A model generated the notes under the pieces. The model was given only the letters and a program-made list of their open reading frames with translations, was not told where the DNA came from and did not search any database. Of a DNA stretch of 64,000 nt, positions 37,120-64,000 are shown piece by piece; the first letter of the stretch is position 1, and the number at the start of each line of letters is the position of its first letter. Source of the DNA: Mactra quadrangularis. Lineage: Eukaryota; Mollusca; Bivalvia; Venerida; Mactridae. Made by a program: the position numbers and the translations under genes. Where the stretch lies: NCBI GenBank assembly GCA_025267735.1, contig CM046299.1, positions 37,772,887 through 37,836,886 of the forward strand, given 5' to 3'.

Positions 37120-40100
37120 AGTCTATTGGCTGCGGAACACGTAGTATGGACTGAGAATAAAGTCTATTGGCTGCGGAACACATAGTATGGACTGTGAATA
37201 AAGTCGTTTTCCTGAGGTACACATAGTATGTACTGTGAGTAAAGTATATTTGCTGAGGAACACAAAGTATGCACTGTGAGTAAAGTATATTTGCTGAGGA
37301 ACACAAAGTATGCACTGTGAGTAAAGTATATTTGCTGAGGAACATGTAGTGTGCGTTGTGAGTAAAGTATATTTGCTGAGAAACACGTAGTATGGACTGT
37401 GAGTAAAGTATATTTGCTGAGAAACACGTAGTATGGACTGTGAGTAAAGTATATTTGCTGAGAAACACGTAGTATGGACTGTGAGTAAAGTATATTTGCT
37501 GAGAAACATGTAGTATGCACTGTGAGTAAAGTATATTTGCTGAGAAACACGAAATATGGACTGTGAGTAAAGTATATTTGTTGAGGAACACGTAGTATGC
37601 ACTGTGAGTAAGGTATATTTGCTGAGAAACATGTAATATGCACTGAGAGTAAAGTATATTTGCTTAGGAACACGTAGTATGGACTGTGAGTAAAGTATAT
37701 TTGCTGAGAAACATGTAGTATGCACTGTGAGTAAAGTATATTTGCTGAGGAACATGAAGTATGGACTGTGAGTAAAGTATATTTGCTGAGAAACATGTAG
37801 TATGCACTGTGAGTAAAGAATATTATTTTTGCTGAGAAACATGCAGTATGCACTTTGAGTAAAGTATATTTGCTGAGGAACATGTAGTATGCGTTGTGAG
37901 TAAAGTATATTTGCTGAGTAACATGTTGTATGCACTATGAGTAAAGTATATTTGCTGAGAAACATGTAGTATGCACTGTGAGTAAAGTATATTTGCTAAG
38001 AAACACGTTGTATGCACTATGAGTAAAGTATATTTGCTGAGAAACATGTAGTATGCACTGTGAGTAAAGTATATTTGCTGAGGAACACGTAGTATGCACT
38101 GTGAGTAAAGTATATTTGCTGAGAAACACGTAGTATGCACTACGAGAAAAGTATATTTGCTGAGGAACACGTAGTATGCACTGTGAGTAAAGTATATTTG
38201 CTGAGAAACACGTAGTATGCACTACGAGAAAAGTATATTTGCTGAGGAACACGTAGTATGGGCTGTGAGTAAAGTATATTTGCTGAGAAACACGTAGTAT
38301 GGACTGTGAGTAAAGTATATTTGCTGAGGAACATGTAGTATGCGTTGTGAGTAAAGTATATTTGCTGAGGAACATGTAGTATGCACTGTGAGTAAAGTAT
38401 ATTTGCTGAGAAACACGTAGTATGGACTGTGAGTAAAGTATATTTGCTGAGAAACACTAAGTATGGACTGTGAGTAAAGTATTTTTGCTGAGAAACACGA
38501 AGTATGGACTGTGAGTAAAGTATATTTGCTGAGAAACACGTAGTATGGACTGTGAGTAAAGTATATTTGCTGAGAAACACGTAGTATGGACTGTGAGTAA
38601 AGTATATTTGCTGAGAAACACGTAGTATGGACTGTGAGTAAAGTATATTTGCTGAGAAACACTAAGTATGGACTGTGAGTAAAGTATATTTGCTGAGAAA
38701 CACGAAGTATGGACTGTGAGTAAAGTATATTTGTTGAGGAACACGTAGTATGCACTGTGAGTAAGGTATATTTGCTGAGAAACATGTAATATGCACTGAG
38801 AGTAAAGTATATTTGCTTAGGAACACGTAGTATGGACTGTGAGTAAAGTATATTTGCTGAGAAACATGTAGTATGCACTGTGAGTAAAGTATATTTGCTG
38901 AGGAACATGAAGTATGGACTGTGAGTAAAGTATATTTGCTGAGAAACATGTAGTATGCACTGTGAGTAAAGAATATTATTTTTGCTGAGAAACATGCAGT
39001 ATGCACTTTGAGTAAAGTATATTTGCTGAGGAACATGTAGTATGCGTTGTGAGTAAAGTATATTTGCTGAGTAACATGTTGTATGCACTATGAGTAAAGT
39101 ATATTTGCTGAGAAACATGTAGTATGCACTGTGAGTAAAGTATATTTGCTAAGAAACACGTTGTATGCACTATGAGTAAAGTATATTTGCTGAGAAACAT
39201 GTAGTATGCACTATGAGTAAAGTATATTTGCTGAGGAACACGTAGTATGCACTGTGAGTAAAGTATATTTGCTGAGAAACACGTAGTATGCACTACGAGA
39301 AAAGTATATTTGCTGAGGAACACGTAGTATGCACTGTGAGTAAAGTATATTTGCTGAGAAACACGTAGTATGCACTACGAGAAAAGTATATTTGCTGAGG
39401 AACACGTAGTATGGACTGTGAGTAAAGTATATTTGTTGAGGAACACGTAGTATGGACTGTGAGTAAAGTATATTTGCTGAGGAACATGTAGTATGCGTTG
39501 TGAGTAAAGTATATTTGCTGAGGAACATGTAGTATGCACTGTGAGTAAAGTATATTTGCTGAGAAACACGTAGTATGGACTGTGAGTAAAGTATATTTGC
39601 TGAGAAACACGTAGTATGGACTGTGAGTAAAGTATATCTGTTGAGGAACACGTAGTATGCACTGTGTGTAAGGTATATTTGCTGAGAAACATGTAGTATG
39701 CACTGTGAGTAAAGTATATTAATTTTGCTGAGAAACATGTAGTATGGACTGTGAGTAAAGTATATTTGCTGAGGAACATGTAGTATGCACTGTGAGTAAA
39801 GTATATTTGCTGAGAAACATGTAGTATGCACTACGAGAAAAGTATATTTGCTGAGGAACATGTAGTATGCACTGTGAGTAAAGTATATTTGCTGAGGAAC
39901 ACGTAGTATGGACTGTGAGTAAAGTATATTTGCTGAGGAACATGTAGTATGCACTGTGAGTAAAGTATATTTGCTGAGAAACACGTAGTATGCACTGTGA
40001 GTAAAGTATATTTGTTGAGAAACATGTAGTATGGACTGTGAGTAAAGTATATTTGTTGAGAAACATGTAGTATGCACTGTGAGTAAAGTATATTTGCTAA

Positions 40101-41365
40101 GAAACACGTTGTATGCACTATGAGTAAAGTATATTTGCTGAGAAACATGTAGTATGCACTGTGAGTAAAGTATATTTGCTGAGGAACACGTAGTATGCAC
40201 TGTGAGTAAAGTATATTTGCTGAGAAACACGTAGTATGCACTACGAGAAAAGTATATTTGCTGAGGAACACGTAGTATGCACTGTGAGTAAAGTATATTT
40301 GCTGAGAAACACGTAGTATGCACTACGAGAAAAGTATATTTGCTGAGGAACACGTAGTATGGACTGTGAGTAAAGTATATTTGTTGAGGAACACGTAGTA
40401 TGGACTGTGAGTAAAGTATATTTGCTGAGGAACATGTAGTATGCGTTGTGAGTAAAGTATATTTGCTGAGGAACATGTAGTATGCACTGTGAGTAAAGTA
40501 TATTTGCTGAGAAACACGTAGTATGGACTGTGAGTAAAGTATATTTGCTGAGAAACACGTAGTATGGACTGTGAGTAAAGTATATCTGTTGAGGAACACG
40601 TAGTATGCACTGTGTGTAAGGTATATTTGCTGAGAAACATGTAGTATGCACTGTGAGTAAAGTATATTAATTTTGCTGAGAAACATGTAGTATGGACTGT
40701 GAGTAAAGTATATTTGCTGAGGAACATGTAGTATGCACTGTGAGTAAAGTATATTTGCTGAGAAACATGTAGTATGCACTGTGAGTAAAGTATATTTGCT
40801 GAGAAACATGTAGTATGCACTGTGAGTAAAGTATATTTGCTGAGGAACACGTAGTATGGACTGTGAGTAAAGTATATTTGCTGAGGAACATGTAGTATGC
40901 ACTGTGAGTAAAGTATATTTGCTGAGAAACACGTAGTATGCACTGTGAGTAAAGTATATTTGTTGAGAAACATGTAGTATGGACTGTGAGTAAAGTATAT
41001 TTGTTGAGAAACATGTAGTATGCACTGTGAGTAAAGTATATTTGCTGAGGAACATGTAGTATGCACTGTGAGTAAAGTATATTTGCTGAGGAACACGTAG
41101 TATGGACTGTGAGTAAGGTATATTTGCTGAGAAACACGTAGTATGGACTGTGAGTAAAGTATATTTGTTGAGGAACACGTAGTATGGACTGTGAGTAAAG
41201 TATATTTGCTGAGAAACATGTAGTATGGACTGTGAGTAAGGTATATTTGCTAAGGAACACGTAGTATGAACTGTGAGTAAGGTATATTTGCTAAGGAACA
41301 CGTAGTATGCACTGTGAGTAAGGTATATTTGCTAAGGAACACATGGTATGCACTTCGAATACAAA
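37100..41365. repeat. 41-bp minisatellite, about 104 units
   Basis: Unit: TAGTATGGACTGTGAGTAAA followed by GTATATTTGCTGAGAAACACG. From the landmark at 37115 to its last clear copy at 41317 is 4202 bases, equal to 102 x 41 plus 20; the 20 bases are four +5 variant units (near 37816, 38969, 39713 and 40661). Variant spacing shows internal duplications of 28 units (1153 bases) and 23 units (948 bases). Reverse-strand frames are open in all three phases because the unit lacks stops there; no gene is implied. Confidence 0.97.
37115..37202 (+). promoter_or_regulatory. Three AATAAA poly(A) signals in the first satellite units
   Basis: AATAAA occurs at 37115-37120, 37156-37161 and 37197-37202, exactly 41 bases apart. 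The first overlaps the tim stop codon. Later units have AGTAAA instead. These are plausible 3'-end processing signals for tim mRNA, but a signal overlapping the stop implies an extremely short 3' UTR unless a later one is used. Confidence 0.5.
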
Positions 41366-48153: not shown

Positions 48154-48390
48154 TTAATTGACTGGGTAGAGCATGTATTCCACTGCTTTGCTTCCAAACA
48201 TGATAAACTCTGTCTTTAAGTTGTTCATTTTTAGTTTATTTTCATTCATCCATAAATTTATTGTTACAGCACACTTTTCAAGTAAAGGAATTGCATTTGA
48301 TTCCTCATTCTGATTGCCAGGGTAGAATCTTTTATTGGCGGAGTGGTCATCTGCAAAACCATGCACTGGTATAACAGATGGAATAACATC
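48154..48390 (-). pseudogene. LINE reverse transcriptase fragment
   Basis: The piece includes HGFADDHSANKRFYPGNQNE and INLWMNENKLKMNNLKTEFI followed by MFGS. F-A-D-D-H-S is the catalytic palm box, and W-M-x-x-N-x-L-K-x-N...K-T-E is the next conserved RT motif of jockey/RTE-type LINEs. Nothing else of the element is clear, so this is a short relic. Confidence 0.8.
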
Positions 48391-49390
48391 AAATAAGAAT
48401 CATGTATAGGTGAGATAAAGCCACAGACCAGGACAACTAACTACCTGCGCACCTTTTTACTAATTAATCGTACGATGAAAATCATCCCAAGCCAAAAGCA
48501 AGAAACATTAATAATACAGTCATTTTTTTGGCCAATCAATTTCAAATATTACTGAGTTATGTAGAATATTGTATACCCTTTGAATACTAAATAATAGATA
48601 GCTTTATCATCCTCCTGACTTCGAAATGCAATTTTATGAAATTGACTTACGATAACTTTTTTAAGAATTTTTGTGAAAAGGTGTACTGGTTGATAAGATA
48701 TGACAAAGAATGAAGATATTCATTAACATTTTTGGAACGATGTCCTAAGACATCGTTCCAATGGTAACAAGAAAGTATAAGATTACTCTTTTCACGCTTC
48801 AAAAATTTTCAACATAGAGAAAGAGGCGTACTTCAAGCGTTACACTCATTAGCATCTCATTTTAATGTAATACAACGCCGGCTTGTGTTGTCGGTCGTTG
48901 AAATCATTCACAAACGTATATAGTTAAGTTATTGCAAAATCGCTAGATGGCGCTGTGGCCGAGCATTGAGACGGATAATTATGCAAAGATCTCATACGTT
49001 ATTCATACTGAACTATTAAAAGAGGGTGGGGTACCGTGATCACTCATGCAAACCTAAGTGAACCAAGACTACAAAATTGTGATTACTAGTATAGATCTAA
49101 ATTGTTTTTTTTTAAGTTATGAGCCAATATATTTATCAAAATCACCTAGGGAAGTATGTGTAAGTATAAATATATTTGCACCCTTTGAGGGTTGATAAAA
49201 AGTTTCCTGTATTAAAAGTTTCTTTTTATTCGTACATGCCATGATTGACCATTACTTATAGTTGATGTATATATCATTACTACAGTTTATATGTTTATTA
49301 ACATAGACGATTTTGAATGGTTGCAATAGTGGTATTAATAGCCCACGTCCGGAAATCAAATATTTGGATTTTCTCCTCCGGTTCAAACAC
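48391..49390. other. Intergenic, no gene seen
   Basis: Only the hairpin at 48732-48761 stands out. The 5' end of the Helitron-like element may fall in this stretch or just after it, but no terminal signature is recognised. Confidence 0.4.
48732..48761. repeat. Perfect 13-bp hairpin with 4-base loop
   Basis: TTGGAACGATGTC and GACATCGTTCCAA flank the loop CTAA with no mismatch. It lies 2 kb upstream of the Helitron ORF. Subterminal hairpins are a Helitron feature, but position and following bases do not match the canonical end, so this is only a candidate. Confidence 0.75.
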
Positions 49391-49398
49391 TATATAAA
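49391..49398 (+). promoter_or_regulatory. Candidate TATA box upstream of the Helitron genes
   Basis: CACTATATAAACAC is a good TATA element about 1.37 kb 5' of the large ORF. Transcription starting about 30 bases downstream would give a leader reaching the donor-like AACAAC|GTAAGT at 49909. No transcript evidence is available. Confidence 0.35.
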
Positions 49399-49399
49399 C

Positions 49400-50502
49400 A
49401 CTCTTCGTTACAATGATAGATCTAATAGAGTACAAAGAAAACTATGATCTAAAATCGATAGTGTGTGCTATATTTATAAAAATGATGAAATGAAAGTGGT
49501 ATTTTTTGTAAAATTCACACGAGTGCAAATAATGATCAGAAGAACAGTTTAACTATAACGGTCTTATGATTGCAAAAAAATAATCTGACATAATGTAGCG
49601 TACAGGTTGTGCACATTCGCCTTTTAAAACTTTTTGATCGACCCTTATTACTGAGGGTAGCGAGTGTGTTAAGCCTAACAAAATAGTGCGCATTAGTAAG
49701 TTATTTATGAACTCATGAATTTTTATCATGCATTTTTTCTTTTCTTCATTGTAAAAGTAATATATGTAATTATTTGAAAACATCAAGAACTACTTGATTT
49801 AATCGTGTCTTCTATATCGGTGTCAATCGCGCAAGGATACATTCCCGCGAAAATTACTGAACCCACGCTATCTTGACCCACTTAGCTGAGGAGAAGAATA
49901 AAAACAACGTAAGTTTTACCGTTTATTTTCATGATATATTCCGTGTTTATATTTTTGTTTATGTTTTGTTTAATGTTTATCTATTTATTGATTGTGTATA
50001 TAACCTTCTGTAGTCATTTTATATTCGTGTGATTAGAGGGATCCAATATTATTGTCCGGAGCCGTCATGCGTGTTGTCTGCGTGTTCATTGATTGAGGTA
50101 TAGTTGATACTTCAACAATTATTTCTAGTATTATTTCTCATTGATCTGTGTAGATAAATCCCAGCTAAACCTTACCAGCAGTATTAAATTTCTAGCACCA
50201 GTATGTGATAATCTGAGCGTTGCTGGTTTGTATCGTTTGCTGTTTGTTTACGTTCGACATCCCGATCTGACCTACTTTCAGTTTATGATAAGGGAAATAA
50301 CTCATTTCCTCATACCGAAACAGTTGTCCTTCAAATTGTTATGTGATGTGTGTTTTTTTCTTGAAGAGGTGATTTCAAAGTGCTACATACATTAATCTTG
50401 GTTTACTCATTAAATTGATTAATTCACTGTTTTGGAAATTGGTTCTATATATGCTGATATTGACTGTTTGCTTCATTTATTTTAAACTATCAAAGCTTGG
50501 AG
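49400..50502 (+). other. Putative leader of the Helitron genes, non-coding
   Basis: No conserved coding frame. A strong donor consensus, ACAAC|GTAAGTTTTACC, at 49909 could end a leader exon. Acceptor-like sites exist further 3', and the clear one is at 57255, immediately before the RPA-like ORF. Confidence 0.35.
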
Positions 50503-50716
50503 TTGAATTTCCTGGTACTCAAATCTTGGCATTGAATTCTGGAGCTCACTTCTTGGAGATCAATTTCATAGATTTCAAATTCAAGAAAATACCAGCCATT
50601 CATTGAACACTGAATTTCATGGTACTCAAGTCTTGGTATTGAATTCTGGGGCACATTTCTTGGAGATCAATTTCATGGATTTCAAATGAAAGAAAAAAAC
50701 AGCCATTCAACTCTTG
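50503..50716 (+). repeat. 107-bp direct duplication in the ORF leader
   Basis: Two copies 107 bases apart share TGGTACTCAA, CTTGG(C/T)ATTGAATTCTGG and TTCTTGGAGATCAATTTCAT. The second copy ends about 45 bases before the start codon of the large ORF. Confidence 0.9.
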
Positions 50717-50760
50717 ATTGACTCGGAAGTATTTTGTTGACTTGAAAGTGTAAATATTTT

Positions 50761-53700
50761 ATGATGAGTTGGTCAATACTTCATGCATCTGACAGACATC
50801 AAGGTGATAGCTGCTTTCCATGTGATGCCAGAGGTAAACAATGTGTAACTTGTTGTTGTATGTTTCTTGTACATGTAAATAATTCACAAAGTTGTGAGAA
50901 CATTGATTCTAACTGTTTAACAGATCTATTGTTTGCTGGAAGTCAGTTATATTGTGCTTTGAAACATTCTGTGCAATCTTTAGAATTTGTTAAACCAGAA
51001 CAATTGCCACAGTGTGTTGTTTACAATAGTAAAACTGTATATATTAAACACTTACAAGTTTTATCTGGTTTATTGCAACAGTCTGCACACACGGATGGTT
51101 TTAATGTGTTCAGTTTGGAAGACGTATTTTCCCAAGTATGTCAAAATTCCAAAACATGTAGCATTATTTTCGTATTTCATGGGGTATCAATTGCTATTTA
51201 TTTTAAAAATTATGTTTTTTATACATATGATAGTCATTCAAGGGATAATTACGGTATGAGTTGTCCAAATGGCACCAGTGTTGTTGGTAGTGTTAGGTCT
51301 GTTCATGATATTACCGCATATTTACGTAATTTAGCTACATCTTTGGGCTGTATTGAAGGTACTCAGTTCGATTGTCATATGTTTTCTTTTACTAAAAGAT
51401 ATCAACAATTTTCGCTGAAAATAGTTCTCCATAATGATATGCAGGGCTTCAGTTATATAAATGCAAGTACACAGAATGAACGGGTATTGTGCACTTCAGG
51501 TACAAATCCAATAGCCAAAAAACACAAACTAACAGATGAAAGACAGGGGTTGCTGTTAAGTAAGTCTGACTTATCGGGATCACCCTTGCAAGTACCTACT
51601 AGTAAGAAAATTGTTGTCGGAACAAAGCAGTCTTGCCATCCGTCTTCAGCAAAGAAAACCCAGATCAATTCACTTGCTTCAGTAAAAAATATAAATGTAA
51701 GCTTACAGAATAAACAGGTATTATGCTCTTCAGGTGCAAATCCATTGGCCAAAAAACTCAAACTGACAGATGAGAGACAGCAGTTACTGTTAAGCAACTC
51801 TGACTTTACCGTATCAGCCTTGCAAGAACCTCTTAGTAAGGAAATTGTAGTACGCAAAAAGCAGTGTTGCCTTCAGTCTTCAGCAAAGAAAATCAAGATC
51901 AATTCACTTGCTTCAGTTAAAAGCAAGATTGCTCATAATAGATCTCATTCAAATCCTCCCAAAGAAATTCCATTAAATGAACAGCTAAAAAAAATTGTTG
52001 AGCAGTTTAAAGTTCTTGTTTCTTTTGGACCAGATTACATTTGCTCTTGCTGCACTCAAACATTTTTCAAGCATTCTGTTAGTAATGTTGCTAGAGTATC
52101 TAACACAAATAAAGCTGCAATTTCAAAGTACACTACAGGTTATATAAGTGTGGGTGGCAATGAATGGATCTGCAGAGGCTGTCTTTCAAGTTCCCGTGAA
52201 GGAAAAATTCCTAAGTTTTGGTTGCAAAATGGTCTGAAATTTCCTGATAAACCTATTGAATTACAGCTTTCTAGTTTAGAGGAAAGACTAGTGGCTCCAA
52301 GACTGCCATTTATGCAATTGCGTGAAATGCCAAGAGGTGGTCAAGTTAGCTTAAAAGGAAATATTGTTAATGTCCCTGCAGATGTGAATGGTACAATAAA
52401 AAAGTTGCCAAGAATGTTGTGTGAGACAGAAACTATCATGCTGAAACTTAAACGAAAACTTGCTTACAAACATCATGTTGCTTTCGAAAACATTAGGCCA
52501 AACAAAGTGTTTGAGGCTGCAAAGTGGTTGGTTACTAATAGTACATTATTCAAAAATGAAGGTATATGTATTGATGAAAAATGGCTTCACCATTCTCAAG
52601 AGATAAATGTTCAATCATTAGAGCATGAGCATGACTATAGTGATAAAAATCAAGGTTTGAATTCAAAGCAGAATGATTCAAATTCAGATAATTGGACTGA
52701 GGATGACGAATTTATGAATAGACCAACTGGCAATCTTGACACATGTCTACAGCCTATAGATTATAGAGAATTTAATCAAGTGTTGACTGTTGCTCCTGGT
52801 GAAGACAACTCACCTATAAGTGTGTTTCAAGACATTCATTCAGAAACTTTGTCATTTCCATCAATATACTGTGGTATGGCACGTGTTGATAACAATTCTC
52901 GATTAATTCCCTTGTATTATAGTGACATATGCAAATGGGAATTACGAAATATTGACAGAAGAGTGGCTTTATGCATTCCAAATTTATTCTTTAAACTGAA
53001 AAGATTGCAGATTAAACAGATAAAAGATAAAGTGCATTTAGCTATTAGAAAATGCAAAACAAAAGGCACGAGATTGACTGCTGGAGATATACTTTCACCA
53101 GGTTTTGTGGATAAAATTACTATGCAAAATGATGGTTTCAGAGTTTTGAGAACATTAAGAGGCTCACCTCCTTATTGGGAAGCTGCCAAAAGGGATGTAT
53201 TTGCTATGATTAGACAGTTAGGGATTCCAACCTGGTTTTGCTCTTTTTCTGCCGCGGAAACGAAATGGAAATCATTGCTACGGTCACTTGCTAAACTTGT
53301 TCAGGGAGAAAACTTATCGGATGATGAAATAGATGTTATGTCATGGCAAAGAAAATGTGAATTAATAAAATCTGATCCTGTTACTTGCGCTCGATATTTT
53401 GATTATCGGGTTCAAATGTTTATAAAGAATGTTTTGCATCATAAATGTAACCCTATTGGTAAAATTGTTGATTATTTCTATCGTGTTGAATTTCAACAAA
53501 GAGGTTCCCCACATATCCATATGATTATTTGGGTAGAAAATGCCCCTAAGTATGGTATTGATGCAGATTTGTCGTTATCTCAGTTTGTAGACAAATACGT
53601 CAAGTGTTTGAAAAATGATTCAATCCCAACCCTGATCAATTATCAGACTCACAGACACGCAAGTACATGCAGGAAACATGGCAAGGCTTCCTGTCGCTTT

Positions 53701-56700
53701 AATTTTCCTTTACCGCCAATGCCAGAAACCACTATTTTGTATCCTTTGTCAGAAGAGGAAAAACATGAAAACTGTAATCAAATATACAACAAAATAATAG
53801 AGCAAATTAATATTCTGTATGGGAATGAAAGAAATATTTCCTTTGAAAATTTCCTTTCCATTCTTGAAATTGACTCTGAAACATACATTAATGCTATAAG
53901 ATCATCATTGAAAAGGCCACGTGTGTTCTTGAAACGAACAGTTGCAGAGACTAGAATAAACAGTTACAACCCTGTATTGTTGGAAAGCTGGGAAGCTAAT
54001 ATGGACATACAATTCATTCTGGATCCATATTCTTGTGTATCATATGTAGTATCTTACATTTCTAAAGGTCAAAGAGGATTGTCAAATCTGTTGAAAGATG
54101 CATGTAAAGAAGCGCAAGAAAAGGACAGTGATATTAGACAACAGGTGAGAAGAATAGGCAATCAATTTCTTTCAAGTGTAGAAATAGGAGCTCAAGAAGC
54201 TACATACCTGATTTTACAGTTACCTCTAAGAAGAAGCACACGGGATGTGGTTTATGTTGACACTAAGAAAGCCGACGAAAGAACATCCTTGGTCAAACCC
54301 TTCTCTGATTTAAAGGAAATGCCTTTAAACTCACATAATGTTGAGATGGATAATGTTATTAAAAGATACAAACGTAGACCAAAGAATATGGAAAACATGT
54401 GTTACGCTGAGTTTGCTTCATGGTATGATTTAAAACCAAGAAACAGAAATCAAGTTGTAAGGGGTGAATCAGAACTACCTGAAGAACTGTACAATCATGA
54501 CGATGCTGATGATATTGACCCAACTGTATCTGATAGTGACAATGAAGAAGATCATTCAAATCAAGAAATTGTATTGCCCTGTGGTACAACTTTGCATCGT
54601 AGGAAAAAACAAAAAGTGATATACAGTCATGTCACACCTTCAAACAAAGACAGAGAAGAGTATTTTAGAGAAAAGCTTATGTTGTACACACATTGGAGAG
54701 ATGACGAAAATGATCTTTGTGGCAAAAATGAAAGTTATGAGGACAGTTATTTGAGACAGGAGAATGAATTGATTCAAGTAAGAGTTATGTTTGAACGAAT
54801 TGATGATGAAAGTTATGATGACTTTCCATCAGATCAGGATGATGATGTTAATCCATTTGTCGATGCTGAAGGACAACATCAAGATCTCATTGACATACAT
54901 GATAGGTCTACTCATGTTGGCTGCTTTGATCCTGACTCTGGAAGTGTTCATGCAGAAAATTATGATATTGGTGAAGACATTGGCTTGAACACACGGCACC
55001 CTTGTAATGAAATACTACCACAAAAAGAAATGAATAATGAGGACTACTTACGTAATGTAACTCAGCTTAATAAAGAGCAAAAACGTTTTTTTTATTATAT
55101 TCTCAAGAAGGTTAAGACTGACATTTCTCCATTTTATGTTTTTCTATCTGGTGGTGCAGGTTGTGGAAAGTCAGTCGTTATCCGTGCTATAAGTCAGGCA
55201 TTGTTGAAATTTTACAATCACCAGTACAATTCAGATCCTAGCAATGTTAGTTTACTTTTATGTGCACCAACTGGAAAAGCAGCGCACAATATTGATGGAA
55301 GTACTGTTCATTCAGCATTTTGCATTCCTGCTAATCAGGGTTTTCACTTTAAACCTCTTGATATGCAGCAGTTGAATACAATGAGAGCTCGGTATCAAAA
55401 TTTGAAAGTCTTGATATTAGATGAAATATCAATGGTTGGAAGGAGAATGTTCAATTTCGTTAATTTAAGGTTACAAGAAATTATGGGCTGCACAAAACCA
55501 TTTGGTGGTGTAAGCATTCTTGCAGTTGGGGATCTTTATCAACTTAAGCCTGTTCTTGATGCATGGATATTTGCACAAACAAATAAGGTAGATGATATGC
55601 AGAGTCTTGGGACTAATTTATGGGTAGAGATGTTCACTTTCTTTGAGTTAAATGAAATAATGCGCCAAAAAGATGACTTACACTTTGCTCAATTGTTAAA
55701 TAGATTAAGGGAAGGCCTGTACTTACAATCTGATATTGAAACATTACAAACCAGACTTGTTAGTAACTTAGACTTGTGCCCTGTTTCATTGCGAAACTTG
55801 CCGCACTTGTTCTGTACGAAACTTGATGTGTTTAATCATAATGAAAATATTCTTTCTTTTATGTCAAAATCAGATTTGATTACAATAAATGCGATTGATA
55901 CTGTGTCTGGCAATGTAAGTCAGAATTTGCATGAACAAATAATTTCCAAAATATCTACTGATCCAAACCTAACTATGGGGTTACAGAAAAGTCTTGTTCT
56001 TGGCATTGGCTTGCAAGCTGAATTATGCTCAAATGTTGACACTTCTGATGGCATGACTAATGGTGCTTCTTGCATTGTAAAAAAATTTGATTTAAGAGTG
56101 AAAAACTCGACAAGGTGTAGTATTGTTTGGGTTGAATTTGAACAACAATGCATTGGGAAGAAATGGCGATTAAAGTACCAGCATCTCTATGTTCATGGCA
56201 TACCTAACTCTTGGACTCCAATTCTGGAATTATGTAGGAAATTCTCATGGCGTCATTACAAAACATACCTTATCACTCGGCGCCAATTTCCAATTTACAT
56301 GGCTGCAGGTAAAACCATTCACAAATCTCAAGGCTCAACATTAAAAAGTGCTGTTGTGGATTTTGGATCAAGAAAAATTGACCATATTCATTATGTAGGT
56401 CTAAGTAGGATGACGAGTCTCAAAGGAGTTCATATAATAAACTTAAATTCTTCCAAAATAAGTGTATCTTCAGCTGTGGAAAGTGAAATGGAACGATTGC
56501 GTTCTAGTAGAATGATAGTACCATTTCTAGCTGACATGCCTAGTGATTCAATGAATGTTCTAAAAACTGGATTCCATAATTGTAGGTCTTTACAGAAACA
56601 CTTTCAAAGTATTAGGACAGAACCTGATTTTCTATTGTGTGACATTATAGGTTTAGCCGAAACCAGGGTTTTTGAAGCAATAGACAAGTATAAAATTGAT

Positions 56701-57195
56701 GGCTTTAAGATGTTGTGTTCCAGTAGAAATCATTCTTGTCATGGTGTATCTGTTTACATAAGGGAAAATTTGTCATTTAATAAGTGCTCTTTTTTATCAT
56801 TTTCATCCATAGAATGTGCTGTTGTGCATGTGTTTAGTAATTTAGTTCTTGTTTATGTGTATTGCCCACCTAAAAACAGTACTATTGAAAATTTAAGTAA
56901 TTTCCTGAAATGTTTGTCATGCAATTTGTGCTCATGTTTAGACAATGATCTTTTCAAACAAGTAAGACTTATTTTAATGGGCGACTTTAATTATGACTAT
57001 AGTAAGGACAGTAGACATGCTCAAGTATTTTCAGATGTTGGTTTAAAGCAACTGATACATCATGCTACCACAGATTTTCAGAGCTGTCTAGATCACATTT
57101 ATACAAACATAGACAGTGAATGTATTTATTCTTATGGTTCATTAGAGTCCTATTTCTCTGATCACAAGCCACTTATGTTTACCTTAAAGAATTGA
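50761..57195 (+). CDS. Helentron/Helitron2 transposase: protease-like, Rep, PIF1 helicase, endonuclease
   Basis: One intact 2144-codon ORF for rolling-circle transposition; an in-frame TGA at 50743 supports the first ATG. Domains: residues 1-230, papain-fold protease-like, with Cys28 in RGKQC and Asp157/His159 in YDSHSR, a Cys...D-x-H layout resembling C76-type (herpesvirus tegument) deubiquitinases. Residues 233-388, a 78-residue unit repeated twice, each with AKK(H/L)KL. About 410-560, a cysteine-rich Helitron-associated region with PFMQLREMPRGGQ. About 770-1110, HUH nuclease with GSPHIHM (His918, His920) and YVVSYISKG (Tyr1095, Tyr1099). About 1420-1900, PIF1 helicase with GGAGCGKS (1464-1471), LDEIS (Asp1554) and IHKSQGST. 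About 1930-2144, EEP endonuclease with Asn1940, Glu1967, GDFN (Asp2075) and SDH (His2135). All catalytic motifs look intact, suggesting recent activity. The protease assignment is the least certain. Confidence 0.95.
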   Translation: MMSWSILHASDRHQGDSCFPCDARGKQCVTCCCMFLVHVNNSQSCENIDSNCLTDLLFAGSQLYCALKHSVQSLEFVKPEQLPQCVVYNSKTVYIKHLQVLSGLLQQSAHTDGFNVFSLEDVFSQVCQNSKTCSIIFVFHGVSIAIYFKNYVFYTYDSHSRDNYGMSCPNGTSVVGSVRSVHDITAYLRNLATSLGCIEGTQFDCHMFSFTKRYQQFSLKIVLHNDMQGFSYINASTQNERVLCTSGTNPIAKKHKLTDERQGLLLSKSDLSGSPLQVPTSKKIVVGTKQSCHPSSAKKTQINSLASVKNINVSLQNKQVLCSSGANPLAKKLKLTDERQQLLLSNSDFTVSALQEPLSKEIVVRKKQCCLQSSAKKIKINSLASVKSKIAHNRSHSNPPKEIPLNEQLKKIVEQFKVLVSFGPDYICSCCTQTFFKHSVSNVARVSNTNKAAISKYTTGYISVGGNEWICRGCLSSSREGKIPKFWLQNGLKFPDKPIELQLSSLEERLVAPRLPFMQLREMPRGGQVSLKGNIVNVPADVNGTIKKLPRMLCETETIMLKLKRKLAYKHHVAFENIRPNKVFEAAKWLVTNSTLFKNEGICIDEKWLHHSQEINVQSLEHEHDYSDKNQGLNSKQNDSNSDNWTEDDEFMNRPTGNLDTCLQPIDYREFNQVLTVAPGEDNSPISVFQDIHSETLSFPSIYCGMARVDNNSRLIPLYYSDICKWELRNIDRRVALCIPNLFFKLKRLQIKQIKDKVHLAIRKCKTKGTRLTAGDILSPGFVDKITMQNDGFRVLRTLRGSPPYWEAAKRDVFAMIRQLGIPTWFCSFSAAETKWKSLLRSLAKLVQGENLSDDEIDVMSWQRKCELIKSDPVTCARYFDYRVQMFIKNVLHHKCNPIGKIVDYFYRVEFQQRGSPHIHMIIWVENAPKYGIDADLSLSQFVDKYVKCLKNDSIPTLINYQTHRHASTCRKHGKASCRFNFPLPPMPETTILYPLSEEEKHENCNQIYNKIIEQINILYGNERNISFENFLSILEIDSETYINAIRSSLKRPRVFLKRTVAETRINSYNPVLLESWEANMDIQFILDPYSCVSYVVSYISKGQRGLSNLLKDACKEAQEKDSDIRQQVRRIGNQFLSSVEIGAQEATYLILQLPLRRSTRDVVYVDTKKADERTSLVKPFSDLKEMPLNSHNVEMDNVIKRYKRRPKNMENMCYAEFASWYDLKPRNRNQVVRGESELPEELYNHDDADDIDPTVSDSDNEEDHSNQEIVLPCGTTLHRRKKQKVIYSHVTPSNKDREEYFREKLMLYTHWRDDENDLCGKNESYEDSYLRQENELIQVRVMFERIDDESYDDFPSDQDDDVNPFVDAEGQHQDLIDIHDRSTHVGCFDPDSGSVHAENYDIGEDIGLNTRHPCNEILPQKEMNNEDYLRNVTQLNKEQKRFFYYILKKVKTDISPFYVFLSGGAGCGKSVVIRAISQALLKFYNHQYNSDPSNVSLLLCAPTGKAAHNIDGSTVHSAFCIPANQGFHFKPLDMQQLNTMRARYQNLKVLILDEISMVGRRMFNFVNLRLQEIMGCTKPFGGVSILAVGDLYQLKPVLDAWIFAQTNKVDDMQSLGTNLWVEMFTFFELNEIMRQKDDLHFAQLLNRLREGLYLQSDIETLQTRLVSNLDLCPVSLRNLPHLFCTKLDVFNHNENILSFMSKSDLITINAIDTVSGNVSQNLHEQIISKISTDPNLTMGLQKSLVLGIGLQAELCSNVDTSDGMTNGASCIVKKFDLRVKNSTRCSIVWVEFEQQCIGKKWRLKYQHLYVHGIPNSWTPILELCRKFSWRHYKTYLITRRQFPIYMAAGKTIHKSQGSTLKSAVVDFGSRKIDHIHYVGLSRMTSLKGVHIINLNSSKISVSSAVESEMERLRSSRMIVPFLADMPSDSMNVLKTGFHNCRSLQKHFQSIRTEPDFLLCDIIGLAETRVFEAIDKYKIDGFKMLCSSRNHSCHGVSVYIRENLSFNKCSFLSFSSIECAVVHVFSNLVLVYVYCPPKNSTIENLSNFLKCLSCNLCSCLDNDLFKQVRLILMGDFNYDYSKDSRHAQVFSDVGLKQLIHHATTDFQSCLDHIYTNIDSECIYSYGSLESYFSDHKPLMFTLKN
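51457..51924 (+). repeat. Coding tandem duplication, 2 x 234 bp (78 codons)
   Basis: Residues 233-310 and 311-388 of the Helitron ORF are direct repeats; for example NPIAKKHKLTDERQGLLLS against NPLAKKLKLTDERQQLLLS. The frame is preserved. The unit lies in the linker between protease-like and Rep-associated domains. The basic KK-x-KL cores could serve in nuclear import (inference). Confidence 0.95.
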
Positions 57196-57255
57196 AACAT
57201 ATTTTGTTCATATATTTGTGACTATGTTACATAACTTGTTTTTATTTCATTTCAG

Positions 57256-57462
57256 ATGAGTACTATATCAAGTGTTTTAAAGAAAAAGGCTTCTGGTCCT
57301 TATCAGAAAGCCTTAAAAGTGACAGTGGTTGCTTTGGGCCAAGAAGTCAAATATAAGTCTAGAGATGGGTCAGATAAGAAATTGTTATCAGTTGCCATCA
57401 GTGATGGGGATGAAGTGATAAAGTGTGTCATATATGACACAACTAAATTTTCAAGGTTTAAG
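57256..57462 (+). CDS. RPA-like gene, exon 1
   Basis: Starts at the ATG immediately after the acceptor ending at 57255 and ends TTTAAG|GTATGA. It encodes MSTISSVLKKKASGPYQKAL and most of the first OB-fold barrel, ending TTKFSRFK. Confidence 0.85.
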
Positions 57463-60400
57463 GTATGATACCAGTTACTTTGGCCTTTTGTTCTTCAATT
57501 GCGTCATGAGTTTTCTTATAATAGTCAATTTCTAGATAGTTTTCCATGTCCAAAGATGTCCTTCAATGGCCTGATTGATAGTCAACCAAGTCAAGTATTT
57601 ATCTAACTCTCGAGGATAACTTAATACACATCAATTCATAAACATATATGTATGTATGAGTGGTATATAACTGTTTTGAATCAATTTCAATGCAGAAATG
57701 TTATTAATAATGATTTGTATTGAGTAAACAACATAAACAATGGAATTAATTCTTAACAAGGTATGAATATAAATAGGAAAAAAAGTGACCAAGTTTTTGG
57801 ACACACTTGTAAAGAAACTGTATGTACAGCATTATTTACTGGAACTAATTACAATGGAAATATTAATCTTGTATTAACCAATCATTTTTCATTTTTCTGT
57901 AACTTGATTGTTGGGATTATAAGTAAATCTTTACTAGGGCTGCTGCTAGGATCTGGGTACTCGGATAATTGCAATCTCGGCCAGAAAATAGAAAATGAAT
58001 ATTTGTCACAACCGAAATTGTCGGAACGCAATTTAGCTTTGGGAAAAAAATTATTAAAGCTTAATTACCACTGAAAACGAATCACTCTACTAATGGAAAC
58101 TTAAATTTGTGTAGGGACCAAATTATCTAGAAAATGTCAGCAGCCATAAGCATGGTCTCAATGGGTGATAGTATACCTTTATGCATTTACAGTGTCTTGT
58201 ATTTGTGTTAACACATTTATTTTTGTTCTTTATTTAGGTTGGCAATTCTCTTGTCTTAAGGGATCTCATTAAGAAAGAAGACGGGTCAGTGGTTGTTACT
58301 AGTGCAACCAAAGTATATATCACAGCTCCCCTGAGTGTTCCTCCTGGTCATGAGGATATTGGAATGAGGATTTTAAATCCAGCACCAGCTCCTGAAGTGA
58401 AAATTCAGGAAGCCTTGAATTCACCACCCAGGAAGAAAATTTCCATCTCAGGAAAAATCACTCAGGTAAAGAAATCATGTAACTATTAGTGTATTCTACA
58501 TACTTATGAAATTTAATTACTTCACCCAAGAGTTGATAGGTTAAGTATATTAAATGTTTCTTACTTGGCTGTGAGGAGTAACCTAGTATATTTGTAATAT
58601 ATACTGTTTATACATTTCTTATTTGTAATTGTTCATGATTGACCATTAATGTCAACTAATGTTTTGTTCTTCTTCAATCCTAAGAACAATGTTATTATGG
58701 CCTTTAGTAGTTTATATCAGAAAACAATGTTTTCAAGAATAATTTTGTCTGAGCCATGTCCTTGCTGACAAGAGGCAATGTTTTTTTCAAAACTTCTTGT
58801 GCTGAAGTATTTCATTCAAGTGCATATTTTACCCAAGTTATGTATAACCCACCCTGATGGGTTTAGTTTTTGAAAATAATTTTTAATCAAATAAACCATG
58901 GTAAATGCATTTCAACCTTATAATAATATGATGATATGAATTTTCTTGTGAAATAAAAAATAGTGCTTAATACTGAAACATTGAATTCTTACTGCAGTTT
59001 GTATTGTCATAGTTGCCTGGTGCAATATGCAGTATAAAAGTGTCACCCCTACTAATTACACATTTCATGAAAAGAAATCTTTGATAAATCATACTGACTC
59101 AATACATGTATGTTTTTATGTGTTTGTGTGAGTATTGATAATATTCTCAAACACTTAAAATTGTACAGGACTGGTACTGATGTGGAACTTGTATTCAACA
59201 ACGGCAGTTTAACTTTTCTTGTATAAGCACTGGTTTTTATATTTTATTTCTCAGGAAGAGGAACCAAGACAAGTTACAGTCAGGGATGAAGCTGTGACGA
59301 TAAAAACAATCACAGTTGTTGATGATACAGGCACCAGTAAGGTGACACTTTGGAGGGAGGCAGCTAGTAGTCCTGTCCGCCCTGGGGACCATGTTGCCAT
59401 AACTGATGTTGTTGTAAATCACTACAACAACAACATCACTCTTCAAACAACAAATCCTTCTAAAATAAAGGTTTGTGAAAAAAGTTCATACTTTTGTTAG
59501 GCATTTATAAAGTAATGTTTCAGATTTTAACTGAGGTTATTTCAGCTTACTGTGTTGCAAAGGTAAAAATTGCTATTTTGTCAAACACAATTATGCAAGA
59601 CACACAAAACAAGAATTCATATGATACATTGATGCATGAGATTGATATCTCATGAAAGCTGTTGTACTGTTTTTCATCAAGAATTCTGTTCTGGTTTAAA
59701 GGAAATCCTAACAAATACCTATTTACCTGTAATTTGGCCAAAAGTGGACAAAATGATATGCATAAAATTCCTAATTAACCACTACTTCTTTGGTAAGGTG
59801 AAACTAGAATATGCTTTTATGGAAATATTTGCCAAAATGTAGGGCATGTAAAGTTGATGTGACTATGTATTTAACCAGTCTGAGTCATTGGACAGAACTT
59901 GAGAGCATGATTTCTAAGCTTGTCCCTAAGCTTAACTCATTCCTTCCGTTCAATGTTGATTTTTATCCATTAGGAGAACTACATGCCTCTTTCGGAAGGG
60001 TTAGGGTATATTAATAAGTTGAATAAGTTGAGTTAAGGAAATCTTGATTAGTGAGTCTTATTCCATACATACCTTAATCATCATGTTGATAAATAACATA
60101 AAATTAATTTGGAATATAATAAAACTTTAGAGCTACTACATTTTGGATTAACATAATTCTTAATCATTCAATATTACTGAGAATGTAAAAAATCAGTAAA
60201 GATGTCAGCATGTGCCAGTGCTTTAAAATAGTCATAACCAAGAATAAGGAACCTTTAGACTTGTCTTGGAAATATGTTAATGTCATCACCTGCCTATATG
60301 TAGCTGCACTGGAATCAACTTATTGTTAAAAGCATGCAAACATAAGTCTCTAAATGATTTTATTGCATTGCCTTTCAATCTTTAAATTCAATACAAGCTT

Positions 60401-60993
60401 CTCCTCTTTAATGAGTCCTTTCATAGAAGAAACTAAAATGATGACTAACAATATATTATATAGTAAATGATACATTGCCATGTGTAAATGGTAATGAGTA
60501 CATTTGTCTGATATATTTTATTTGTTCATTTTATTCATAATCTTTACACCTATGAATTTACATGAACTTGGCAAGTATGATAATTTACTAAAAGCCAAAC
60601 ACAATACCACATTTTTGCACATTTACAAAGTATATTACATTGAAATTACATTAAAATTTAAATTTTACGAAATTTTATGATCATGCAATCAAGGCAAATG
60701 CATTATTGTTTTAGTAATTTCAGTTTATTTCTTCATAGTGTCATTGTTTATCTTTTCTCTCTTTTCAGAAGCTAGAAACTCCTGAAGAAGAAAGACTTAT
60801 TATTGTAGAAGCCATTAGTATTAGTAATGGTGTAGCAGATGTCCTCACGCCCTCTGGAGAAAACCTAACCATCCCTGCTGAAATTCTTCAGCAGGCAATA
60901 GGAGATGTTGAAGAGGCTGTCTCTACAGGACCATTCACTATTAAGATCACCTCAAGAGGTTCTGATGTTTCCTGTGTTGAAAAAGTCATATAG
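57256..60993 (+). CDS. RPA-like OB-fold ssDNA-binding protein, four exons
   Basis: Exons 57256-57462, 58238-58465, 59255-59470 and 60769-60993 all break in phase 0 and join into 291 codons ending TAG. Exons 1-2 form an OB fold (KALKVTVVALGQEVKYKS, SVAISDGDEVIKCVIYD, VGNSLVLRDLI); exon 3 forms a second (VTIKTITVVDDTGTSKVTLW, RPGDHVAITDVVV). This two-fold layout recalls RPA1 DNA-binding modules, and some Helitrons carry RPA-like genes. It lies 60 bases after the transposase stop on the same strand, so it is probably the element's own ssDNA-protecting protein. The ATG is the first base after the acceptor TTCATTTCAG, so the mRNA must start in an upstream leader exon. Alternative: a host gene next to the insertion. 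Confidence 0.85.
58238..58465 (+). CDS. RPA-like gene, exon 2
   Basis: Follows CTTTATTTAG and ends ACTCAG|GTAAAG. It encodes VGNSLVLRDLIKKEDGSVVV, finishing the first fold, then a proline-rich linker (ILNPAPAPEVKIQEALNSPP) and KKISISGKITQ, the first strand of the second fold. Confidence 0.85.
59255..59470 (+). CDS. RPA-like gene, exon 3
   Basis: Follows TATTTCTCAG and ends ATAAAG|GTTTGT (weaker donor). It encodes the core of the second OB fold, with KTITVVDDTGTSKVTLWREA and GDHVAITDVVVNHYNNNITL. Confidence 0.85.
60769..60993 (+). CDS. RPA-like gene, exon 4 (terminal)
   Basis: Follows CTCTTTTCAG. It encodes KLETPEEERLIIVEAISISN through PFTIKITSRGSDVSCVEKVI, ending TAG at 60991-60993. The short beta-rich segment may be a third, minimal OB-like module or a C-terminal tail. 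Confidence 0.85.
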   Translation, partial: KLETPEEERLIIVEAISISNGVADVLTPSGENLTIPAEILQQAIGDVEEAVSTGPFTIKITSRGSDVSCVEKVI

Positions 60994-62004
60994 TTAAATG
61001 TTATTATAATGTATGACTTCTCAATCATATTATAAATGATACCTTCTGATGTTTGTTTAAGGAGTTACGCCCCTTTCATATTTTACACATGAATTACATG
61101 GATGAAAGTTTTTCGGGACTGATCCTGAAGTACAGGAATTTTGGAACAGAGAAATGGCTCAGCCTCTTTTTATATGGTAATGTGGCCTAAAATGCCAAAA
61201 CACAAAATTCAGGAATTACAAAATATTGACCTTTCACACGTATGGAATTATAACTAATGCTTGACAGATTTATTTAGTTAGAAAACAGAGCCTGTCTTGG
61301 AAGTACTTTTGTTTAAGATAGCCTTTTTGTCAACCAAGAACTAGAAAAGTTAAGAGCTTTGTCCTTGAACTGCTTTTGTTTTCTTTTACATCATGTATGA
61401 AGTTTTTTTATTTGTTCATGTTAATTTATTGTGGCCATTTAGGCCAATGTGTTTTTAAAAAGCTATATTGTTGTTATGTTTTGTAAGATATGTTTTTAAA
61501 GTTTTTAAACATAGTCAATTTGCTTACTTGCTAAGGCCTTAAATTGAGAGAAACTATTGTTTAGCATGGATGAACATTTTTTATTTATTAAAACTGATCA
61601 AATTTTGTATCAATAATGCAATGTTTTGGACTTTTTTGTTTCAGTTGGTTATTTGCTTGAATATTTCTTTAAGATGGCATTATTGAACCTATTTTAATTT
61701 CAGGCACATTGACACATAAGGCACTATTGCTGTATAAAATCAAGTACTTATTTTCCTTGGTATACATGCCTTCAAATGGGATGTAAATTGGCTATGACCA
61801 TTTGTTTATTTATCATGTACTTAGTATATTATGTATTGTTTATTTATCATGTACTTTGTATATTATTTATTGTGGTAACTTTTTGCTAGACTATTAAGAT
61901 AATAGTATTTTCCCCTCAGTTTTGTGTTGGTGACTATGGCGCAAATATTGGTTAAGTTTTAGGTGCAATATTTTGATACTTTTGTAATCTTCACTGTACC
62001 AGTT
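60994..62004. other. 3' region of the Helitron-like locus, no gene seen
   Basis: AT-rich, non-coding. A 34-base direct duplication (TGTTTATTTATCATGTACTT and following) occurs at 61802-61870. The 3' end of the element was not identified. Confidence 0.5.
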
Positions 62005-62170
62005 ATCATTAGATGACTAGCTCCGCATTAGTTCATACCTGATTTTAAATTTTCTCTACTGTTTCATTGAGCAAGAAACTAATACTACTGGCTTATTACT
62101 GAGGAAGCAAAAAGTGTAAACAAAAGTGATTAATTCAAGTTGTCAGAACCTGTTTCAAAATTGAGCTGTC
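62005..62170 (+). mobile_element. SINE family B copy, diverged
   Basis: Matches 27635 and 34980 through GAGCAAGAAACTAATACTAC, GGCTTATTACTGAGG, CAAAAGTGATTAATTCAAGT and TCAGAACCTGTTTC. Older than the tim-intron copies, judging by mismatches. Confidence 0.65.
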
Positions 62171-63299
62171 AGTAAACCAGGGATGAGAACTCGTACACGA
62201 GTATTAAAAGTATAAGGGTTAATTTTTCCATACTTGCTATATAACTCAGTACTAGATTTAAAATGAATTTTTAATTAATCTGACCTGTGTATGAACTCTA
62301 AATCACTGGTTCAAGTTCTTGTTTCTGGTTCAATATTCATGCTTTCGATTAAAAATAACATATTAGTGAAAATGAAGAAAAATGTTTTTAGCTCGACCTT
62401 ACAAAGTAAATGGAGAGCTGTCTGATTGGCCTTATCGTCAACACCCATGTCCTTATTTCTGACCTAAGTTCTTTTGCAGTTAAATATTTTCACAATAATC
62501 TCTTTACTTCTTAAGATATCAATTTAAAACTTCAAATAAATATTCCTTAATATCAACCATATCTCATGTGACAAGATTCATAACTCAAAACATCTTTCAG
62601 AATTGTCCCCCCTTGAATTGAAAATCTTTAAAAAAACATTTTTTTTTACTTAAACCACTTAGTATCTTACGGTATTAACTTCAATTTCTAAATAAACATG
62701 TATGTTCATTATCATCGCCAACATGTTGTATGATATGATTTATAAGTCTAGCACACATGTATTAATAAAGTATTCCCCTTGTTTCTATGAATAATTGTAC
62801 CTCATTTTAATTTCATTTACTTTAGCTCCCTTCTTACTTACTCAAACATTCTGTCTCTACTGACAGTTCTTGTTGACTTTCCCTTTGAATCATACCACAG
62901 ATTATTATATTATACATATGGTATTCAACCGTTTTTGGAGTGATGCACACTCGAGCTGCTTTTTTGTATTTTGTAATATGACTGGACGACAGGACTTGTG
63001 AAACCTTTTCCTTTTTTAAGCTGACACATAGTTAAACAAAACTGGTATTTAATGGTCATTTCAGTAACTTTACTTTTGTTTGCATAGATTGGGATACACT
63101 GTTGACTTCCGGTATAATACACAGTTTCATGATATACCTAATGATTGATCTAAGATAATGAGAAAACTTATATTTGATCACAGAAAAATAGTTCAATACC
63201 ATGTGTATAATAGTAACCTATTGCTCATTTAAAAACAATTATTAATAAGAGACAGTGTTTTCTTTGTTTCTTCAATAATATTATTTTTATAAAGCTTAG
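62171..63299. other. No gene seen
   Basis: AT-rich sequence without supported coding frames or RNA genes. Confidence 0.5.
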
Positions 63300-64000
63300 A
63301 TGATGTCTAGGGTTCAAAGTTACATGGGTGAAAGTTTTCCGTATTTTGACGGAATTCCGTATTTTCGACGGCCGCCAAGGCCATTTTTCCAATTCATGTA
63401 AATCCGTTGAGAAATTTGAGGGGGGGGGGGGTAGGGGGTGAGGGTGTCAAAATCGATGTTTGGCGATCGTAATCACTAAAAAGGGAAGTAATTTTGACGG
63501 AAATACGGAATTTACCAATGTCAGTGACACGTTAAAATGTATCTAATAGCATGCGTCATTTGACGTAACTTTTTCAATTTAATTTAACAACGGTACACAA
63601 ATATTTGCTGCTAAAAATAACTTTGACGGAATTACAAGTCATTTTTTCGGTGATCAGTAGATCACTAAATACGGCTTTTATATTGCATACGACGCAGGCA
63701 TTTGGTTACGAGGTATCAATTTAAAATAGTGATCTTGTCTTATAACTTTACTATTTGTCTCAAATCGTCTTTATATTTCATTAATAACCAGCGATTGAAT
63801 TCAATTTAATCCTTTGTTTGGTTACAAATTTACACATGCTTGACATTGTTAAGATGTGTGTCCTGTCGGCTTTTTTCACACTCTTTGATGTTTTATTACA
63901 CAGCAATGTCTTAAATGCAACGTCTCAGTGTGTCATCATAGCGTTAAGTTTGATTTAATTGTTTATATAATTAGTTATGCTTAAAACAAGAATGACCTAG
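63300..64000. other. No gene seen; CCGTATTTT repeats and G-tract
   Basis: TTCCGTATTTTGACGGAATT occurs next to a second CCGTATTTTCGACGG, with an inverted partner (GACGGAAATACGGAA) near 63497. Between them is a 12-G run followed by GTAGGGGGTGAGGG, potentially quadruplex-forming. Possibly the edge of an unrecognised repeat that continues past the window. Confidence 0.4.

Follow-up and report, generated by a model that had tools for sequence, protein, structure and literature searches.

Is the long open reading frame (ORF) on contig CM046299.1 (C7 below) of the bivalve Mactra quadrangularis part of a Helentron, a rolling-circle transposon, and, if so, how complete is this element and how recently has it moved? 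We analyzed a window of 64 000 nt (assembly GCA_025267735.1, positions 37 772 887–37 836 886 of the forward strand); coordinates below refer to the window unless a contig is named, and the features discussed are collected in Table 1. A preliminary description of the window had given 50761–57195 as the element; we saw that this interval holds just the ORF (ORF1), while the element starts at 48729 and runs beyond the end of the window. The Helentron identity itself is supported by both protein and terminal features. Judging from the sequences of this locus and its copies, we very probably deal with an autonomous-type Helentron that transposed recently and has a well-preserved coding part.

Table 1. 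Features of the Helentron and their positions in the window
Feature	Position	Strand	Remarks
Helentron, part in window	48729..64000	+	runs on to C7:37841506; 19892 bp including nested 3556-bp insertion
5′ terminal palindrome (palindromic subTIR)	48734..48759	.	GGAACGATGTC-CTAA-GACATCGTTCC, preceded by TTTTT at 48729-48733
Candidate splice donor GTAAGT	49909..49914	+	putative; the 5′ leader has three motifs of this kind
ORF1	50761..57195	+	2144 residues, single frame without stop; order VTD, DUF6570, Rep, helicase, EEP
VTD / Herpes_teg_N domain	50794..51321	+	residues 12-187; candidate catalytic C28, D157, H159
Tandem duplication, in-frame	51455..51922	+	234 bp (78 residues, 83% alike); linker between VTD and DUF6570
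DUF6570	52201..52587	+	residues 481-609; Pfam match above cut-off
Rep	53140..54057	+	Helitron_like_N, residues 794-923, with RGSPHIH; YVVSY at 1095-1099
PIF1-type helicase	55063..56472	+	residues 1435-1652 plus C-terminal part to 1904; PF05970 E 7.5e-27; PIF1 structures match
EEP (AP-like) endonuclease	56578..57165	+	residues 1940-2135
Gene 2 exon 1 (predicted)	57256..57462	+	ATG directly after ..TTTCAG
Gene 2 exon 2 (predicted)	58238..58465	+	GT-AG, phase 0
Gene 2 exon 3 (predicted; OB fold)	59255..59470	+	GT-AG, phase 0
Gene 2 exon 4 with stop (predicted)	60769..60993	+	same four exons in second Helentron family
Nested 3556-bp element, part in window	63323..64000	.	terminal inverted repeat CATGGGTGAAAGTT; 6-bp repeat AAGTTA on either side; near Helentron 3′ end

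ORF1 and its catalytic domains

The frame was correctly described earlier as a single uninterrupted ORF of 2144 residues. Its origin by chance was excluded, as the longest open frame in 200 first-order Markov sequences (64 kb each, trained on the dinucleotides of ORF1 itself) had only 238 codons (mean 146).

The N-terminal domain of ORF1 was matched by Pfam family PF04843 (Herpes_teg_N) with E 3.4e-9 (37.0 bits, cut-off 25). Structure 8ADD was matched with E 2.8e-7 by the single sequence and with E 3e-28 by a profile of 21 sequences; this crystal structure shows a deubiquitinase encoded by a Helitron of zebrafish (Erven et al. 2022, PMC9741609; here and below, papers with PMC numbers are cited for excerpts of their text). 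The same profile also matched herpes tegument structures (E 1.6e-14 to 6.7e-6). An OTU protease at this place was considered and rejected: a Pfam scan with E up to 0.1 gave Herpes_teg_N and no OTU family. Homology to Herpes_teg_N, together with the presence of the Cys and D-x-H residues, places the predicted domain with the VTD deubiquitinases. Thus, the ‘protease’ of the preliminary description is real as a domain, but it is of deubiquitinase type, and the excerpts of PMC9741609 already describe VTDs in Helentrons.

A protein search gave 231 homologues of ORF1 at E up to 0.001, and conservation of residues was read from the 120 listed ones aligned with the query. Counted by hand, PF04843 is present in 64 of these 120 and an OTU domain in 10; where an organism name was listed (34 homologues), 25 are bivalve, the two best matches being from Ruditapes philippinarum. 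Candidate catalytic residues C28, D157 and H159 are retained in 61, 64 and 64 of the 64 homologues with PF04843, the three misses being gaps.

All catalytic motifs named earlier (HUH, Y-x3-Y, Walker A/B and the N/E/D/H of EEP) are present and largely kept in the 120 homologues. The HUH motif is formed by H918 and H920 and the YxxxY motif by Y1095 and Y1099, which makes this a Rep with two tyrosines (the four residues are kept in 119, 119, 120 and 120 sequences). Motif 2 of Rep has an aromatic-x-R and G-S-P ahead of H-x-H (..FYRVEFQQRGSPHIH..); the Helentron-diagnostic S916, located between G and P, is kept in 119 of the 120. In the helicase, K1470 of Walker A and D1554/E1555 of Walker B are kept in 120, 119 and 119 sequences. 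The EEP residues N1940, E1967, D2075 and H2135 are the least kept (109, 107, 97 and 96). Most of the non-conserved catalytic positions correspond to alignment gaps.

In profile searches, with Rep and PIF1 scoring above cut-off, EEP was found weakly: the match to Pfam Exo_endo_phos (residues 2065–2135) has 20.2 bits against a cut-off of 24.5, a point against the endonuclease. With the Pfam score below threshold, we base the assignment of a putative endonuclease on three points: its motifs, weak similarity to APE2 (E 1.3e-4) and to the exodeoxyribonuclease structure 5CFE (E 9.8e-4), and sister families. The EEP part is 40% identical to the EEP region of sister family L014; among full ORFs from three other families of this genome EEP was above cut-off in two; for the third, L014, EEP was not among the listed matches, but GDFN and SDH motifs are present.

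The linker between VTD and DUF6570 contains a duplication (Table 1). Both its units also match the three other copies of the element; blastn alignments to the 82%-identical family L012/L013 skip this stretch.

Copies, ends and target site

The preliminary description proposed looking for near-identical copies and deriving the ends of the element from them. The whole ORF1 was found at three further loci of the 979-Mb genome, giving four copies on four contigs, each with both ends: C7, the copy in the window (37821615–37841506, 19892 bp), C16 (41715570–41733203, 17634 bp), C9 (7386612–7412160, 25549 bp) and C15 (28490263–28509110, 18848 bp). The ends were set by stepwise alignment of the copies, followed by a genome search with both termini; the copy alignment gives a net length of 16330 bp (∼16.3 kb) for the window copy. 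The 5′ terminus is common to the four copies, with the first 201 bp being 100% identical in all of them; the 3′ terminus is likewise common to the four, with the last 200 bp 100% identical in three and one base missing in C15.

Several earlier placements were abandoned. A 5′ end at 49156 was replaced by 48729 once wider flanks had been aligned, a 3′ end at 63322 was dropped as C15 and C16 continue together past it, and two supposed truncations (C15 at 49900, C9 at 61820) were discarded as both ends are present in all four copies. Just outside the 5′ end, an open frame on the minus strand (48157–48399) resembles by eye a fragment of reverse transcriptase (FADD stretch).

Near the 3′ end, an 11-bp GACATCGTTCC located 24 bp from the terminus matches the 5′ subterminal inverted repeat (subTIR); a hairpin, AGCAC-CTTCA-GTGCT, lies 6 bases before the end and is followed by TTTGATT. 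The element nested in this part of the window copy reaches C7:37839764 (66878 in extended coordinates); all its open frames are shorter than 120 codons.

For the C15 copy, joining the two flanks gives a sequence that is 96% identical to a paralogous, uninterrupted empty site, C15:28610498–28610736. The empty site has 7 T, compared with 6 T ahead of GG plus 1 T behind GAT in the filled one; therefore, the insertion occurred within the T run, with no target duplication. Two observations weigh against reading the insertion point to the base: in the empty site, the five bases that follow the T run on its right fail to align with the flank of the filled site, and another empty site, which is more distant, has 6 T. 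Next to the C16 copy, a repeat unit with 6 T can be compared with the filled site, where 5 T precede GG and 2 T follow GAT; these numbers fit a T-run target, though the count is not the same. Insertion at a TT or T-rich target without duplication, for which one close empty site serves as evidence, is what we observe.

Recent transposition and its rivals

The window copy is 99.1–99.8% identical to the other three in the main blastn alignments. Beyond the four copies genome matches are at most 83% identical, with the exception of one 357-base fragment (94%) at C11:61573096, a part of a truncated remnant seen as two blocks (88% and 90%). Pairwise divergence of ORF1 among the four copies is 0.11–0.23%. 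Near-identity of the copies indicates that the Helentron was recently active, as had been proposed for this ORF. Outside ORF1 the pairwise divergence, by region and pair, is 0.00–0.58% (the 0.00 values come from a stretch of 816–820 bases). In comparison of the window copy with C16, ORF1 has 7 differences in 6434 positions versus 49 in 9889 for the rest (p 1.3e-5); ORF1 is also less diverged than the rest in comparison with C9 (p 0.036).

Selection was assessed against L012, a copy of an 82%-identical family. Across 1970 codons the dN/dS ratio is 0.17, and the aligned codons contain no in-frame stop; by domain the ratio is 0.19 for VTD, 0.11 for Rep, 0.12 for helicase, 0.26 for EEP and 0.31 for the linker (51 codons). 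L013 gave the same picture; L014 and L016 were left out of this inference, their synonymous changes being near saturation. ORF1 is under purifying selection in every domain measured. For VTD the selection is clear, though somewhat looser than for Rep and helicase.

Some observations weigh against an autonomous-type element that transposed recently. The difference between ORF1 and the rest is not significant at 0.05 in comparison of the window copy with C15 (p 0.056). The C16, C9 and C15 copies have one single-base indel each in ORF1, so three of the four copies carry a frameshift and the full frame is found in the window copy only; these indels may, though, be assembly errors. Furthermore, every copy is interrupted, since each span exceeds the net length: we read directly the nested 3556 bp in the window copy and a 1243-bp insertion located elsewhere in C16, while for C9 and C15 interruptions are deduced from spans and alignment breaks. 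The window copy may be no longer mobile. The element was initially called intact; this holds for the open ORF1, but not for the copy as a whole.

The alternative that survives best, with a chance that we rate somewhat short of even, is a Helentron that is dead by now: its burst would have ended, with one frame left open by chance. A frame open in one of the four copies, an ORF1 indel in three and later insertions in all four are what such an element would have. On the other hand, the copies have hardly diverged, and in two of the three comparisons ORF1 differs less than the remainder of the element at p <0.05. With divergence this low and the ORF conserved, any loss of activity would be very recent.

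A host gene domesticated from a Helentron is highly improbable. Such a gene could have an open ORF under purifying selection, and domestication of VTD genes elsewhere is mentioned in excerpts of PMC9741609; however, four near-identical copies, each on its own contig and each bounded by transposon ends, are not a unique host gene, and other Helentron families have open ORFs as well. The remaining alternative, a canonical Helitron (Helitron1) with an unusual fusion, has the same Rep-helicase core in its favor (the 21-sequence profile of ORF1 matched the Helraiser transposase, 7LCC, with E 1.4e-23), and is made equally implausible by EEP, the G-S-P signature, the palindromic subTIRs, the T-run target and the GATT end. 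Canonical Helitrons insert between A and T and have a CTRR-type 3′ end; here we saw a GATT end and a T-run target. Helraiser, which shares the Rep-helicase core with our Helentron, is of Helitron1 type, is not known to have VTD or EEP and differs in its ends.

A predicted second, spliced gene

The preliminary description placed protease, Rep, helicase and endonuclease in one ORF. All four domains are indeed in ORF1; another gene, gene 2, follows on its 3′ side. It is predicted to have four phase-0 exons with GT-AG borders (57256–60993) and to code for 291 residues. SHLD2_OB1 was matched above cut-off with E 2e-10, the OB fold being found with exon 3 alone as well as with the spliced protein. 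The gene 2 protein matched structures of single-stranded DNA-binding proteins (SSB) with E 3e-6 and replication factor A with E 6.7e-5; matches to the listed RPA70 chains were weak (E 0.16–0.94). The product of gene 2 is thus a predicted OB-fold protein of the SSB/RPA-like, single-stranded DNA-binding type.

That gene 2 is a genuine gene and a part of the element is supported best by the conservation of its exon structure in another Helentron family, represented by L014 (with L052). The same four exons occur there in the same order, 3′ of ORF1; the protein is 44% identical; the GT donors and AG acceptors are at the same places in both families, and in both the ATG of exon 1 directly follows CAG. 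As counter-points, exons 1, 2 and 4 taken singly match no Pfam family, and a match to gene 2 (E up to 0.01) was found in 7 of 20 fetched Helentron loci, three of them being the near-identical copies; many of these 20 loci stop before or near the position where gene 2 is expected. A protein database search with gene 2 gave one distant match (E 3.9e-7, 23% identity). One could guess that matches are scarce because genes with introns are poorly predicted in the database.

It is conceivable, although we consider it rather unlikely, that a single promoter serves both proteins. The 5′ leader, with its candidate donor (Table 1), would then be spliced either to ORF1 or, past the 6.4-kb ORF, onto the acceptor at the start of gene 2, so that alternative splicing would yield a transposase and an SSB protein.

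The spliced gene 2 is the least expected part of the element. A spliced second gene in a Helentron had no mention in the open-access titles and beginnings of abstracts that were found. One of the papers found, PMC4528327, treats splicing of transcripts of maize Helitrons; in the excerpts of PMC4067079, the passages on introns call Helentron ORFs intron-free, and the string ‘splic’ is absent.

Relatives in the genome

A genome search with PF14214 (Rep) gave 36 rows, including two that overlap. Seven of the 36 are in open frames of at least 1995 codons; the ORF of the window is open, as described earlier, but it is not special in this respect. Among the full ORFs scanned from three other families, VTD was present in one; the remaining two lack both VTD and OTU (E up to 0.001). 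PF04843 was found at 18 places, and at 16 of these a PF14214 match lies no more than 4 kb away. The two VTD places with no Rep match within 4 kb, C19:23402366–23402827 and C15:4937163–4937585, could be broken pieces of Helentrons or solo VTD genes.

The 36-bp 5′ terminus occurs at 238 places of the genome (up to two mismatches), the four full copies included; a control with the reversed pattern gave 0. Search with the 201-bp 5′ end left 40 scored ends out of 1264 first-look candidates: four are the full copies, and 36 match with 92–95% identity over the first 175–193 bp. We read eight of these 36 partial ends; all have the palindrome behind at least 5 T (in L048 in a shorter form). Two of the eight, L049 and L051, are complete non-autonomous elements of 1462 and 1464 bp with a similar hairpin. 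Both subTIRs are identical over 11 bp between L049, L051 and the full Helentron. The last 60 bp of the Helentron agree with those of L049 and L051 in 65% and 68% of alignment columns (gaps counted), and the last 35 bp are 91–94% alike. Under the published rule, the 11-bp subTIR puts the 1.46-kb elements into the same family as the Helentron, while 65–68% identity leaves them, as far as sequence comparison goes, outside its subfamily. As identity falls short of the subfamily level, the Helentron is a candidate partner of these elements.

Comparison with known elements

According to excerpts of PMC4067079 (Thomas, Vadnagara and Pritham 2014), Helentrons carry Rep, PIF1 and EEP in one ORF with the G-S-P signature in Rep; have palindromic subTIRs, a 3′ stem-loop and a T-rich target without duplication; and are accompanied by a separate RPA-like gene and by short non-autonomous relatives (HINEs). 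The element described here shares all these features. It differs by the N-terminal VTD, where those excerpts report OTU proteases, and by the four exons of gene 2, in contrast to the intronless RPA-like ORF of mite.

Excerpts of PMC9741609 present Helentrons with VTD, including the zebrafish elements DrT1 and DrT2 as active examples, and name molluscs among the hosts. A tegument-like deubiquitinase domain in the ORF, with Cys and D-x-H residues, is common to these Helentrons and ours; one VTD is known from sequence here, compared with two in DrT1.

In the Pacific oyster, by excerpts of PMC7492417, a relationship to the non-autonomous Cg_HINE elements could not be established for any of 10 autonomous elements. 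The architecture reported there, a left module of subTIR and complementary repeat and a right module of subTIR and palindrome, was observed here too, as were the TT target, the lack of duplication and the bivalve genome. Unlike Cg_HINE of those excerpts, L049 (the one complete short element scanned) has a minor 16-bp array of 2.4 copies. Also unlike the situation in oyster, the autonomous element has the 11-bp subTIR and, at ∼94%, the first 175 bp in common with short elements. Excerpts of these papers already report Helentrons with VTD (molluscs included), RPA-like genes, ends of this kind and short relatives; the set of domains is not new.

Possible mechanism and use

By analogy with known systems, Rep would nick the 5′ T/GG junction with the help of the Y-x3-Y tyrosines and the HUH metal site, and the PIF1 helicase would peel off one strand, which could be coated by the OB-fold protein of gene 2. 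The hairpin ahead of the 3′ end would signal termination; the strand would then be joined into a T-rich target, perhaps opened by EEP. One could speculate that VTD most likely strips ubiquitin from the element’s own protein or from host factors and in this way shields the transposition machinery; the same guess on a protective role is made in excerpts of Erven et al. (PMC9741609).

With near-identical copies of defined termini, two genes and a closely related empty site, all in one genome, this Helentron offers material for in vitro work on rolling-circle transposition of animals. A VTD that is under selection makes the role of a deubiquitinase in a transposon easier to test.

Other features of the window

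A 41-bp minisatellite (∼103 copies, 37109–41354) underlies the strong GC skew of its stretch. ORFs at 37–41 kb (up to 696 residues) were rejected as genes; they are frames running through this minisatellite. Another tandem repeat, of 145/291 bp, is located at 13645–14488. Fragments of DDE_3 transposase and of reverse transcriptase, with zf-RVT nearby, were found at 24479–25069 (plus strand), 10903–11580 (minus strand) and 9912–10364 (minus strand). An Rfam tRNA match at 6414–6485 (plus strand), with 31.3 bits against a gathering score of 29, could be the head of a SINE.

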